Below are positions 7,371 through 12,639 of a stretch of DNA of 64,000 nt, piece after piece. The stretch's first letter is position 1; the number at the start of each line of letters is the position of its first letter. This DNA comes from Ktedonobacteraceae bacterium. GTDB lineage: Bacteria > Chloroflexota > Ktedonobacteria > Ktedonobacterales > Ktedonobacteraceae. The stretch lies in the NCBI GenBank assembly GCA_035653615.1, contig DASRBN010000025.1, positions 124,001 to 188,000 of the forward strand, read 5' to 3'. The notes under the pieces are model-generated. The model had not been told where the DNA came from. It was given only the letters and a program-made list of their open reading frames with translations, and did not search any database. Position numbers and translations under genes: made by a program.

Positions 7371-7521
7371 CGACAGGAACCGCAGGGTATTCCAGGGGTT
7401 GATCAATTGCTTACTGGTCAGACCCATTAGTACTTTTCGATAGGTGAAAGTATCACTTCATGTTCCATTCATGCGATAATAGGGAACGTTGAGATACTGT
7501 ACGGTGCGCAATGTGGCGGCG

Positions 7522-7626: not shown

Positions 7627-7655
7627 TTGTAAGCAGAAGTTTCTCATGTTATACT
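7627..7655 (+). promoter_or_regulatory. Promoter of the sigma-like gene
   Basis: -35 TTGTAA (7627-7632), 17-base spacer, -10 TATACT (7650-7655) with an extended TG at 7647-7648. It lies 51 bases before the ATG at 7707. Confidence 0.65.
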
Positions 7656-7706
7656 TTTTAGGCGTCGAGTTTTACCTTGATTTTTGTTAGCAGGGAGCTA
7701 TTGTCG

Positions 7707-8471
7707 ATGGAGCCGCAAAACTCCTATGAGCCACTCGGTTCTGAAATCAGCCGGGCAGGGAAGGCTGAAAGCAAACCACAACTGGAGCTACTCTCAATTA
7801 ACGACCTGGCTCGTTGCTGCTCCGAAGAAACGAATAAGTTTCTCAAGCAAAGCGCTTCGAATGATCGCTACTGCTTAGAGCTATTTCGCCGCGCCATCAC
7901 TCGTCATGATGACGATGCCTGGGCCTGCATCTACCAGCAGTATGCGCCTCTGGTGCTTACCTGGGTCAATCAGCACCAGAGCGCGGCGCCATTGTTGGGC
8001 CAGGATGGAAGTGGGCCGCTTGTGAATGCCGCTTTTGCCAAGTTTTCACAGGCCCTCACCCCTGCCAAAATGGATAACTTCGACTCACTGGCAGCGATTT
8101 TGAAATATTTAAAAATGTGCGTGCATAGCGTCATTGCCGACGAGGTGCGCTCGCGGCAATCGCGGCAGTATGAAGAGACATTGGAATTGATCGAGAATGA
8201 ACCGGCGTCAGAGGACCCAGCCGATGATGTTGTTTCCACTATCTCGGCGCAGGGATTGTGGCAGGTCATTCAAGAAGAACTCAACGGGGAAGAAGAGCGC
8301 GTGCTGATCTATCTTGCCTATATTCACGGCATGAAGCCCAGCGAGATCAGCAGCCAGCACCACCGCCTGTTCCCGACGGTAGAGGATGTCTATCGTATCA
8401 AACGCAATGTGTTAGAGCGATTGAGACGGAATCGCCGTCTACAAACGTTATTTAAACATCAACATCTGTAA
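7707..8471 (+). CDS. ECF-type sigma-70-like factor
   Basis: 254 residues. After an N-terminal extension of about 60 residues, a region 2-like stretch is visible (AWACIYQQYAPLVLTWV, then SLAAILKYLKMCVHSVIADEVRSRQ), an acidic linker, and a region 4-like helix-turn-helix (EEERVLIYLAYIHGMKPSEISS, then VEDVYRIKRNVLERLRRNRR). It probably binds core RNA polymerase and recognises promoters, but it is divergent from housekeeping ECF factors and may have limited promoter range. ATG 7707 has GGGAG nine bases upstream. It is followed by the zinc-finger protein gene and a TPR-CHAT protease gene on the same strand, suggesting a regulated sigma/anti-sigma pair with a protease. Confidence 0.75.
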   Translation: MEPQNSYEPLGSEISRAGKAESKPQLELLSINDLARCCSEETNKFLKQSASNDRYCLELFRRAITRHDDDAWACIYQQYAPLVLTWVNQHQSAAPLLGQDGSGPLVNAAFAKFSQALTPAKMDNFDSLAAILKYLKMCVHSVIADEVRSRQSRQYEETLELIENEPASEDPADDVVSTISAQGLWQVIQEELNGEEERVLIYLAYIHGMKPSEISSQHHRLFPTVEDVYRIKRNVLERLRRNRRLQTLFKHQHL

Positions 8472-8720
8472 CGATCAAATGATCTTGCAATATTTGCTGT
8501 GCTTTCAAATGCGCGCAAGCGCAGATACTAAAATAGCAAATGTGTTCGTTTATTCTGTTGAAAAGGACAAAAGAAGCCTGCCGGAGACGTGCGGTTTACT
8601 GGAGACAAGGGGAGAGGTCGCCTGTATCACGCGCGTGCCATGCCGGTGGGGATGGTCTGGCCTCTTTACGAAGTGGACTGTGACCATCTGATCACTATCC
8701 TATAGTAAAAGGAAACGCTC

Positions 8721-9530
8721 ATGGAGTGTAGTGAACCTGGAACTATTCGCGATGAAGAACTGCTGGCATATCTGGCGGGGGAGAGAGTACGGCCGGCCGT
8801 TGTGCAGCATCTTGGACATTGTCCGCATTGTTCGGCGCAGCTAGCAGAGTACCGCAGAATAGAACATACGCTTGTCAATAAACTCTACCGGTGGGATTGC
8901 CCATCGAATCTCACGCTGGGCGAGTACCAGTTAGGGCTGCTCGATAAGGAACATGCCATGGCTGTCAGGCTGCATCTGAGCCAGTGCGTGCTTTGTGCCG
9001 CCGAAGTAGCAACCCTCACCGAATTTCTTGCCGATGATCCAATCCTCGTTGAGCGTGTGCCTGTTCGTCCCTCCTCCCTGAATAATCATCGTCCGGCTGC
9101 CCAGGAAGTCAGAAGTGTGCTGGATCGCCTGGCGGAGCGTTCGCGCGAGCAAGTGCGGCGTATCAAAGCAACCCTGCTGCCACCGCAGCCTCGTTTTGCC
9201 TACCAGCGCAATGTGGCTCAACCCTCCGTCTGGCCGCGTCGCTATACTGCCGAGGATGTCAGTATTTCTATCCAGGTCGAGCGGGCTGCCGGTCGCAAGG
9301 AAGATGTACAATTGATAGGATTCGTCACACGCAAGGGAGCCACGTTGGAAGCATTGCAGGGCATTCCGGTCCTTCTTTCCTTGCAATCGGATGCCGTCTA
9401 CACGCAAAATATCGATGAACTCGGTAATTTCGTCTTTTCCTCGATCTCTCCCGCAACCTATACGCTGGAGTTGCAGTTGCCGGAAAGTACGATTGTGATC
9501 GAACAACTTCCGGTCACTTTGCAGGATTGA
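8721..9530 (+). CDS. Double zinc-finger anti-sigma-like protein with C-terminal beta-sandwich
   Basis: 269 residues, no membrane segment. Two successive zf-HC2-type motifs are seen: LLAYLAGERVRPAVVQHLGHCPHC (His-x3-Cys-x2-Cys, residues about 15-37) and VRLHLSQCVLCAAEVATL (residues about 80-97). A basic/proline-rich linker follows, then about 80 residues resembling a transthyretin-like or carboxypeptidase-regulatory beta-sandwich (GFVTRKG through PVLLSLQSDAVYT and GNFVFSSISPATYTLEL). Zinc anti-sigma proteins bind and silence ECF sigma factors. Its place between a sigma-like gene (249 bases upstream) and a CHAT protease gene suggests it is the sigma inhibitor and a possible CHAT substrate (inference). 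Confidence 0.78.
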   Translation: MECSEPGTIRDEELLAYLAGERVRPAVVQHLGHCPHCSAQLAEYRRIEHTLVNKLYRWDCPSNLTLGEYQLGLLDKEHAMAVRLHLSQCVLCAAEVATLTEFLADDPILVERVPVRPSSLNNHRPAAQEVRSVLDRLAERSREQVRRIKATLLPPQPRFAYQRNVAQPSVWPRRYTAEDVSISIQVERAAGRKEDVQLIGFVTRKGATLEALQGIPVLLSLQSDAVYTQNIDELGNFVFSSISPATYTLELQLPESTIVIEQLPVTLQD

Positions 9531-9554
9531 TGAAAGAGTTGACTATTATGCCGC

Positions 9555-9588
9555 CAGCCCCTACAATGTCCATTGTAGGGGCTGTTTT
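9555..9588 (+). terminator. Hairpin terminator between the zinc-finger and TPR-CHAT genes
   Basis: CAGCCCCTACAATG (9555-9568) and CATTGTAGGGGCTG (9571-9584) are a perfect 14-bp stem with a 2-base gap, followed by TTTT. It would end or attenuate the sigma/zinc-finger transcript before the TPR-CHAT gene. Confidence 0.7.
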
Positions 9589-9629
9589 GTGAACCCCGAG
9601 ATCATCTTTCACAGGACCTGCCCCGTAAT

Positions 9630-9658
9630 TTGAGATGCATAGACATACAATGTACAAT
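9630..9658 (+). promoter_or_regulatory. Promoter of the TPR-CHAT gene
   Basis: -35 TTGAGA (9630-9635), spacer of exactly 17 bases, -10 TACAAT (9653-9658), 29 bases before the ATG at 9688. The protease therefore has its own sigma-70-type promoter. Confidence 0.72.
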
Positions 9659-9687
9659 CCAGGTGAATTAGCGGAAGCCTTGCTTGC

Positions 9688-12639
9688 ATGACACCTCAAG
9701 ACCTGTTTGCCACGCTACTTGATATGGATGAGGAAGAGGGGCGGCATGTACTGCGAACTGAGATCCCCGCGTATGATAGCGCCTCGATTGATGTGCTGGT
9801 GGAATTGATGAAGCGCGAGGCGGACCGCCAGTGGGTCAAAGATTCGCAGCGCTCGTTTGTGATGGCCGGTTACCTGCTGTGTATTGGCGATCTGCTGCGT
9901 GATAAATATGTACACGCGCTTGGGTTAATGGCCCGTGGTGATGCGCTGCGACGTATGGATCGAGACAACGATGCGCTGCCATTTTTGGATGCTGCCGGAG
10001 AGGAATTTCTCGCAATCGGCGATGAGGTGGGCTGGGCGCGAACTCGTATTGGGCGTGTCAGCGCCTGCCTGCGCTTGAATCGCACGACCGAGGCGCTGCG
10101 CGACGCAGCTGCCGCCCGCGAAGTCTTTGTACGTCATGGGAAGCTGCTGCGGGCCGGGCAAATTGATGTCAATGCAGCGCTCATCAATTACGAGCTGGGT
10201 CAATACGACCAGGCTTTGCGTCTCTTCGACCGCGCAATTGAAACATACACACGCCAGGGGGAAGGCGTTGATCTCCATATCGCCCGCGCGCGCGGCAATA
10301 AGGCTATTACACTCGCGGCGATGGGGAGATTTCGCGAAGCCGTAGCATTGCATGAGCAAGCGCGTGCCACTTTTGCCAGGCACCGGGGCCAAGAAATCTC
10401 TGTAGCGCGAGAAGAATTAAACATCGCCCAGATTTATGCCGCCCAGGGCCATTATAGTCCGGCCCTACTGCTCTTCAATCGCAGTCGCGCAAACTTTCTG
10501 CAACACAATATGCTATCGGAAGCAGCTGAAGTCGCCCAGCAGACCTGTCTTTGCCTGTTGCGCTTGAATCGCGCTCAAGAAGCCTACGAGCTTGCCGGTG
10601 AGACAATTAAGTATTTTCGCACGTCGAAGCACCAGAATCGCCATAATCTTGCCCACTCGCTGATGTATCGCGCTGAAGCTGCTATGTTGATGGGCGATGT
10701 GGGTGGGGCCGATGAGATGCTACAAGAGGCGAGCAATATTCTCGAATCGATCGGCTTTATGGCTCTGGCGACGGTTGTGCGATTGAAAAAGGCCGAACTC
10801 TACTTTGCCGATGGTCAACTGGAAGCGAGCTTACGTGAGGCCCGTCATGTGGCCGATGCTTTCGCGGACCAGGAAGCCTTGCCCCAGCTGGCACGTGCCT
10901 CGCTGCTCCAGGCTCGCATTGCCGCGACGCTTGGTGATACCGCGACGGCGGGTGATCTCTGCGACCAGGCGCTCGATATCGCAAAGGGTCAGGGACTGCT
11001 TGAAATGCAATATCTCTGCTATTACCTGCTTGGCCAGATTGCCGAATATCATGATGATCTGGAGACGGCGGCAGGCTATTATGATCGCGCTATCCAGGGC
11101 ATTGATGATGTACAGAGCCTCCTGGTGATGGATGAACGCAGCACGTTCTTACAGGATAAAGGCGATGTGTACCGGCGCGCGATCATCCTGGCGCTGAGAC
11201 GCGGGAATATCGATAGGGCGCTTGTCTATGTCGAAAAGGCCAAATCTCGCGTCCTTGGCGATTACCTGCGCAACAACATAGATATTCGCCTGCGGGCCGG
11301 AGATAAGGCGAGCGAGGCGATTCTTGAAGACCTGGCGCGGCTGCGTGAAGAACAGGCCTGGTATAGCTCGCTGGTCTACGAGTCGGAACAGGAAGGTAAT
11401 CTGAGCGATACAGCCATCATGCGTATTCGCGCTATGAAGCCTGGAGAAGCGCGGCGCGAGATGCAGAAGCGCGAACGCTATATTGAGCGCCTGCTGGAAC
11501 AGATGCAGCTGCGCCTGGCCGGAGACCTGGTGTCGCGCCCGCGCACAAAATGGACGGATAGTATCGTCACTTCGCTGTGGCCCAAACTTGAGCGCTCGAT
11601 GATCATACTGGAATATTACCTGACCGGGCAGGACCTGTATATTTTCCAGCTTACTCGCGATGGTATCGATGTACAGGTTGTTGCGGGAGCCGTTCCCAAA
11701 GTGGAGCGCCTGCTCTCGCTCTGGCGCGTCAACCTGGAACTGGCGGCGCAGGCGAGCGGCGCGCAGGATCGCGCCCAGGCCTTCGCAGGCCTGCAAGAGA
11801 ACAGCCTGGGATTGTTGCAGCGGCTTTACGATCTCCTGCTCAAGCCGGTCTCCCATGCCCTCGAAAGGCGCGAACACCTGACGATCATTCCTTACGGCAT
11901 GCTGCATTACCTGCCCTTCCATTGCTTGTTTGATGGCGTGCAATTTGTAGTGGAACGCCTCGACGTTTCCTACCTGCCTGCTGCCGCGCTGCTAGATATC
12001 TGCCGCCAACGGGGGCAGCGTATCGCGGCAAAAGGCGTACACCTGCCGGATTCGCTGGTGATGGGGATAAGCGATGGCGGTCGCCTCGCCTTTGCGGTGC
12101 AGGAAGCTGAGGCTGTGGCGAAGCGTCTGGGCGCCCCATGCTTGCTGAATGAAGCAGCAACTACTACCATCTTGCAGCAGAAGGGGGCGCGCAGTCCTAT
12201 CGTTCATATCGCGGCTCACGGCCTGTCGCGCCTCGATGCCCCGAACTTTTCGCACATCAAGCTCGCGGATCGCCAGCTCAGCACCATCGAAGTGTTCAAC
12301 CTCGATCTCTCATCCTGTTCGCTGGTAACCTTGAGCGCCTGCGAAACGGGACGCGCCATGATCGGCGGTGTTGACGAGGTAATCGGCCTGGGACGGGGTT
12401 TCCTGTACTCCGGCGCGGCCTCGCTGTTGCCGACACTGTGGAAGGTTGACGATGCCAGCAGCGCGGAACTGATGGAAATGTTTTACCAGGCCCTGCTCAG
12501 CGATTATAGCAAAGCTGCTGCCCTCGCCGGCGCCCAACGCGCTTTCCTAGCACGTGCGCGAACCTCCATTCGCCCCTATCGCGTGCATCCGTACTTCTGG
12601 GCGGCATTTCATCTGATAGGCGACCCTGGCAAGTTATAA
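9688..12639 (+). CDS. TPR-CHAT caspase-like protease
   Basis: 983 residues. Residues from about 60 to 500 are repeated alpha-helical TPR units (for example AALINYELGQYDQALRLFDR and AKGQGLLEMQYLCYYLLGQI). A charged helical linker follows, and the C-terminal quarter is a CHAT domain. The catalytic dyad is visible as His844 in HIAAHG and Cys885 in LSACETG, with the typical following VDEVIGLGRGFLYSGAASLL and LPTLWKVDD stretches. CHAT proteases are caspase/separase relatives that cut specific protein partners when their sensor domain is triggered. It is transcribed from its own promoter, 157 bases after the zinc-finger gene; the neighbours suggest the substrate is the anti-sigma-like protein (inference). 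Confidence 0.9.
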   Translation: MTPQDLFATLLDMDEEEGRHVLRTEIPAYDSASIDVLVELMKREADRQWVKDSQRSFVMAGYLLCIGDLLRDKYVHALGLMARGDALRRMDRDNDALPFLDAAGEEFLAIGDEVGWARTRIGRVSACLRLNRTTEALRDAAAAREVFVRHGKLLRAGQIDVNAALINYELGQYDQALRLFDRAIETYTRQGEGVDLHIARARGNKAITLAAMGRFREAVALHEQARATFARHRGQEISVAREELNIAQIYAAQGHYSPALLLFNRSRANFLQHNMLSEAAEVAQQTCLCLLRLNRAQEAYELAGETIKYFRTSKHQNRHNLAHSLMYRAEAAMLMGDVGGADEMLQEASNILESIGFMALATVVRLKKAELYFADGQLEASLREARHVADAFADQEALPQLARASLLQARIAATLGDTATAGDLCDQALDIAKGQGLLEMQYLCYYLLGQIAEYHDDLETAAGYYDRAIQGIDDVQSLLVMDERSTFLQDKGDVYRRAIILALRRGNIDRALVYVEKAKSRVLGDYLRNNIDIRLRAGDKASEAILEDLARLREEQAWYSSLVYESEQEGNLSDTAIMRIRAMKPGEARREMQKRERYIERLLEQMQLRLAGDLVSRPRTKWTDSIVTSLWPKLERSMIILEYYLTGQDLYIFQLTRDGIDVQVVAGAVPKVERLLSLWRVNLELAAQASGAQDRAQAFAGLQENSLGLLQRLYDLLLKPVSHALERREHLTIIPYGMLHYLPFHCLFDGVQFVVERLDVSYLPAAALLDICRQRGQRIAAKGVHLPDSLVMGISDGGRLAFAVQEAEAVAKRLGAPCLLNEAATTTILQQKGARSPIVHIAAHGLSRLDAPNFSHIKLADRQLSTIEVFNLDLSSCSLVTLSACETGRAMIGGVDEVIGLGRGFLYSGAASLLPTLWKVDDASSAELMEMFYQALLSDYSKAAALAGAQRAFLARARTSIRPYRVHPYFWAAFHLIGDPGKL

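Follow-up and report, generated by a model that had tools for sequence, protein, structure and literature searches.

Three genes follow one another on the plus strand of the window, the 64,000-nucleotide stretch of DNA analysed here (contig DASRBN010000025.1, named C25 below) from a member of the Ktedonobacteraceae described as a soil bacterium. In the open-reading-frame list they encode, in order, a divergent ECF-type sigma factor, a zinc protein with two ZAS domains and a C-terminal beta-sandwich, and a tetratricopeptide repeat (TPR)-CHAT protease (Table 1). A first-pass annotation made from the letters alone had reported this three-gene set, running in one direction, and a 983-residue protease with His844 and Cys885 intact. 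The reading frames were confirmed, and the triad is real and beyond chance: 26 family loci preserve its order. We propose that the three products may constitute a protease-released sigma switch resembling the output arm of Craspase (Csx29, Csx30 and CASP-sigma).

Table 1. Features of the triad and its flanking regulatory marks (window coordinates)
Feature	Position	Strand	Basis
TGCGATAATA element before the sigma gene, conserved among type-A loci	7472..7481	+	Upstream-region comparison
Promoter-like TTGTAA-N17-TATACT with extended -10 TG, before the sigma gene	7627..7655	+	Consensus match
Divergent ECF-type sigma factor, 254 aa	7707..8471	+	TIGR02937 match and relatives
Predicted cytosolic anti-sigma factor, two ZAS zinc domains and C-terminal beta-sandwich, 269 aa	8721..9530	+	Motifs, matches, model
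ZAS motif 1 (C3, H30, C34, C37)	8727..8831	+	Conserved in most homologues
ZAS motif 2 (C60, H85, C89, C92)	8898..8996	+	Invariant in 69/69 compared homologues
Linker, residues 145-175 (RRIxATL ... QR163N ... WPRxY), candidate CHAT recognition/cleavage region	9153..9245	+	R163 and linker decay
C-terminal beta-sandwich	9246..9515	+	In every CHAT-linked homologue; AlphaFold strands
13-bp hairpin followed by TTTTG, terminator-like	9555..9584	+	Palindrome class
Promoter-like TTGAGA-N17-TACAAT before the CHAT gene	9630..9658	+	Consensus match alone
TPR-CHAT protease, 983 aa (TPR superhelix about residues 1-530; CHAT 709-979)	9688..12639	+	PF12770, AlphaFold, PDB folds
Catalytic His844 codon	12217..12219	+	Conserved in alignments
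Catalytic Cys885 codon	12340..12342	+	Conserved in alignments

The sigma factor scores 42.1 bits against TIGR02937 (sigma70-ECF), just below the model cut-off of 42.9, and shares mostly 62-87% identity with its type-A relatives. The sigma factors at equivalent loci in other phyla exceed that cut-off, for example with 79.8 bits. The start is placed at the ATG at 7707; an alternative TTG at 7677 also lies in the open frame.

The zinc protein carries C3-x26-HxxxCxxC and C60-x24-HxxxCxxC, which are two canonical ZAS spacings, and a hydropathy check of its sequence found no transmembrane stretch. The beta-sandwich gave weak CarboxypepD_reg and SdrD_B matches and appears as strands in the AlphaFold model. 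A PDB sequence search returned weak matches to the anti-sigma factors RslA, DdvA and ChrR; no Csx30 chain was among the matches. The ZAS spacing and these weak matches support the anti-sigma role assigned in the first-pass annotation, and the zinc protein probably holds back the neighbouring sigma factor. The two genes share one frame and were modelled together as a read-through fusion. In Foldseek searches it gave weak matches only, some of them to sigma factors and to immunoglobulin-like domains. The model assigns low confidence to zinc protein residues 157-169, as for a disordered linker.

The protease matches PF12770 at 200.7 bits, in addition to its TPRs. All 18 diverse relatives compared share His844 and Cys885, and both residues are also conserved in the family alignment. 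The AlphaFold model is of good quality (predicted local distance difference test, pLDDT, 88.7; predicted template-modelling score, pTM, 0.83), and its best solved structural matches are Csx29 from the Cas7-11 complex, ranked first, and human separase. The CHAT part scores 59.2 bits against the NCBIfam Csx29 model, far below the 300-bit cut-off.

Homologues of the zinc protein were sought in 101 genomes, and close homologues were found in the family of the window. The order sigma, zinc protein, CHAT was observed in the 26 family loci, 25 of them complete and one truncated by a contig end ahead of the sigma gene. A profile of the zinc protein searched over 400 genomes of the phylum (Chloroflexota) recovered triads in further families, with the genes overlapping or nearly touching in many of them. 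The co-occurrence of the three families on which the original proposal depended is thus not refuted, since the family loci and further Chloroflexota families alike keep order and content. The module is also present, in its type-A form, in the cultured relative Dictyobacter aurantiacus (locus L193), and the genome of the window has a second, paralogous triad on contig C38, beside a Usp gene. Gene order, domain make-up, fold, conservation and the intact catalytic and zinc residues were all established.

Judged by Pfam, a subtilase gene directly follows CHAT in 22 of the 30 non-type-A loci with room for it, versus none of 21 type-A loci, the type to which the window belongs. Four-gene units with a subtilase (PF00082) were seen at L045:3092-5173 (the C38 copy), L134, L136, L138, L141, L143, L166 and L168. 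Some of these subtilases have an N-terminal hydrophobic stretch; most are low on a 19-residue hydropathy scan. Acidobacterial and planctomycete loci in named genomes combine an ECF sigma factor, a TPR-CHAT protein and a subtilase. These are looser cases, some of which include a small protein weakly similar to the zinc/beta profile.

Comparison of loci with and without CHAT connects the protease with the zinc protein. The beta domain is present in 48/48 CHAT-linked zinc proteins, and CHAT linkage is absent from all 20 zinc-only proteins (Fisher P = 7e-9, for samples that are not phylogenetically independent). Arg163 (R163), in the linker, is found in all 48 CHAT-linked proteins versus 12 of the 21 CHAT-less homologues. 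Among type-B proteins, the linker identity of 0.47 drops to 0.29 in copies lacking CHAT, with values for the zinc part of 0.49 and 0.46; the beta region is eroded too and the zinc region is not. At L167 the beta domain alone adjoins CHAT. At three other loci (L147:4214-5710, L159:6900-8450 and L170:5066-6595) sigma, ZAS and beta parts occupy a single open reading frame directly before TPR-CHAT, and proteolysis would be a natural route to separate such parts. It is because of the beta/CHAT co-variation, the decay of R163 and the linker, the L167 arrangement and the fusions that we link the two proteins functionally. The direction of this comparative evidence is consistent with CHAT acting on the zinc protein; the phylogenetic sign test is underpowered. 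The sigma tree holds eight changes of CHAT linkage and five of linker integrity. One CHAT-less copy, in genome G004, retains an 84-residue CHAT remnant (L098:7805-8056) directly after a zinc protein with an intact linker, and this remnant marks a recent loss.

The WPRxY motif within the linker was considered as a universal cut site and rejected. It is near-invariant in CHAT-linked copies of the Ktedonobacterales type and absent from other families, so the wider linker together with R163 is preferred as the candidate region.

Like the output arm of Craspase, the triad encodes together a TPR-CHAT protease of the same fold, an ECF sigma factor and a partner. In both systems the partner has two parts, of which the N-terminal one binds sigma (shown for Csx30, predicted for the zinc protein). 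The differences are that the partner here is a tandem-ZAS protein with a beta-sandwich and is not recognisably Csx30, that the CHAT protein has 983 residues compared with about 670-750, and that no gRAMP/Cas7-11 or other cas gene was noticed among the neighbours of the triad, an inspection that did not include a dedicated CRISPR array scan. PADLOC matched none of the three proteins to any listed anti-phage defence system protein. Two type III CRISPR RAMP gene clusters occur in the same genome (G000) on contigs C33 (74056-80557) and C44 (21189-25993), unlinked to the window.

Other systems share parts of this design. In the type III CRISPR system CalpL-CalpT-CalpS, consisting of a SAVED-Lon protease, an anti-sigma factor and a sigma factor, the protease should free sigma from the anti-sigma factor. 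CalpL is a Lon-like protease switched by cyclic oligoadenylate, and that system is not known to have a CHAT component or a ZAS-beta partner. Class I ZAS anti-sigma factors such as RsrA, ChrR, RslA and DdvA also have C-x(24-26)-HxxxCxxC motifs and lie beside an ECF-type sigma gene. They differ from the present protein, which has two tandem ZAS domains, a linked CHAT protease and a cytosolic beta-sandwich in place of a cupin or membrane part. Caspase-fold protease genes are likewise encoded with sigma factors in EACC2 systems with an ECF sigma factor and DUF1822 (PMC8195603) and in Myxococcus metacaspase operons with sigma-70 (PMC3501461). The proteases of these systems belong to other caspase-fold families, and the available text of the two reports gives DUF1822 as partner or states none and describes no zinc-beta protein. 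The triad would be a variant of the known protease-released sigma kind and not a new kind. A literature search found no title or abstract describing the module, which is not proof that such a description is absent.

Our model of the switch is as follows. At rest, the tandem-ZAS protein would bind the ECF-type sigma factor, and the co-variation suggests that its beta-sandwich and linker may engage the TPR-CHAT protease. The TPR superhelix, or a partner docked on it, would sense a cue from the cytosol, and this cue would activate the His/Cys dyad. CHAT would then cut the anti-sigma factor within or close to the disordered linker that joins its zinc part to its beta-sandwich, and the cut may destabilise the sigma-binding half so that the sigma factor is freed. 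The precedent is experimental: Csx29 cleaves Csx30, an inhibitor of CASP-sigma, and thereby relieves the inhibition of sigma (PMC10028731). With this precedent, the conserved gene order, the ZAS spacing, the co-variation and the Csx29/separase fold support a Craspase-like switch. The analogy drawn by the first-pass annotation finds support in the fold, with Csx29 ranked first, and in the co-variation of zinc protein domains with CHAT; its overall interpretation is partly supported. That the triad is a CRISPR-free, Craspase-like release switch, for which we infer the binding, the cleavage and its position, the trigger and the regulon, is a reading we hold with about as much belief as doubt.

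A number of observations count against this release model. In Craspase the N-terminal Csx30 fragment can remain bound to sigma once Csx30 is cleaved (PMC9729208), and the cut by itself may therefore be insufficient to release the sigma factor. Craspase cut sites show no conservation between orthologues (PMC11106740); for both reasons the cut site in the present protein cannot be read from the sequence. R163 was considered as a P1 arginine by the separase mechanism and was rejected: the separase residue that reads the P1 arginine reportedly corresponds to K670 of Csx29, which aligns with the non-acidic A926 here, and R163 is therefore kept as a recognition candidate and not as the predicted P1 residue. 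The read-through model of the sigma factor and zinc protein resolved no complex (pLDDT 66, pTM 0.41). About two of six independent pairs change in the same direction and none in the opposite one, too few events for significance. The linker is intact in some CHAT-less copies (L064, L087, L092 and L099), an objection softened by the finding that the genomes G008 and G015 have CHAT elsewhere.

The arrangement of the genes might be explained differently. The zinc/beta protein could be an inhibitor or docking factor of CHAT, as securin is for separase, with CHAT (and the subtilase where present) as the effector, degrading other targets or killing the cell, and the sigma factor mainly setting operon expression. 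The separase fold of the protease fits this idea, and so does the subtilase that follows CHAT in the non-type-A, acidobacterial and planctomycete loci, where it looks like an output; CHAT proteases are executioners elsewhere, through gasdermin activation in work cited in PMC9729208. Type A, including the window, is nevertheless without a subtilase in all 21 loci and keeps the sigma factor and zinc protein, and the ZAS domains and sigma persist after CHAT loss. For these reasons the sigma arm has its own job, and we judge the securin-like arrangement unlikely.

CHAT might instead steer the anti-sigma factor without cutting it, with its TPR region attached to the beta-sandwich and altering how the ZAS part holds sigma; alternatively, redox state or zinc might be sensed by the ZAS domains directly. 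In favour of this, oxidants or singlet oxygen act on ZAS anti-sigma factors such as RsrA and ChrR, and the beta/CHAT co-variation fits any mechanism. The invariance of His844 and Cys885 means that catalysis is under selection, however, and regulation without cleavage seems to us decidedly unlikely. It is very improbable that the genes simply share regulation as members of a stress island, where CHAT and the zinc protein would have no direct biochemical link. Several lineages without CHAT do retain sigma and the zinc protein, and some CHAT genes are unlinked from that pair, but the triad recurs in other families with overlapping genes, the sigma-ZAS-beta fusions exist and the linker and beta region decay in CHAT-less copies.

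Returning to the release switch, a wider proposal is doubtful but worth stating: that a sigma-ZAS/beta-TPR-CHAT(-subtilase) module is CRISPR-independent in Chloroflexota and divergent in Acidobacteriota and Planctomycetota, with a separase-like protease freeing sigma through a cut in its anti-sigma factor, and that the output arm of Craspase is a CRISPR-captured version of this older module. Because the trio recurs in many bacterial families, a sigma switch worked by proteolysis, which until now was known chiefly from a single CRISPR system, looks like a general device of bacteria. If true, a CRISPR curiosity would become a general class of proteolytic gene switch with cultured relatives such as D. 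aurantiacus. The linker between the ZAS and beta parts offers a concrete candidate substrate region for CHAT proteases, a group with few known substrates.

With respect to transcription, the protease had been credited with its own promoter and a preceding terminator. Both sites exist, and the hairpin belongs to a set of about ten such palindromes across the genome. Relatives do not keep this split: in 20 of 48 the CHAT gene overlaps the zinc protein gene or lies no more than 20 nt from it, the gap being often absent, and a separate CHAT transcript is thus a local feature at most. The region holds eight promoter-like sites versus 4.2 +/- 1.8 in shuffled sequence, so that a single such site says little. 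Upstream of the sigma gene, TGNTATAMT recurs before several type-A sigma genes, and TGNGATAAT lies upstream of 13 sigma entries, all of type A, and occurs once in the window. As a regulon motif, TGCGATAATA was discarded, with 11 genome sites versus 13 in the control and no genome-wide enrichment.

Two further arrangements were observed. At L231:5433-10706, from Saprospiraceae, an ECF sigma factor, an anti-sigma-like protein, a 231-residue lipoprotein-like protein and a CHAT protein are encoded one after another, and this locus may be a distant cousin from Bacteroidota. On contig C37 of the genome of the window (L047:7420-11651 and L048:6980-10603), two sigma paralogues adjoin NB-ARC/TPR/LuxR-type STAND proteins, which take the place of the zinc protein and CHAT; one of these STAND proteins has a weak TIR match.

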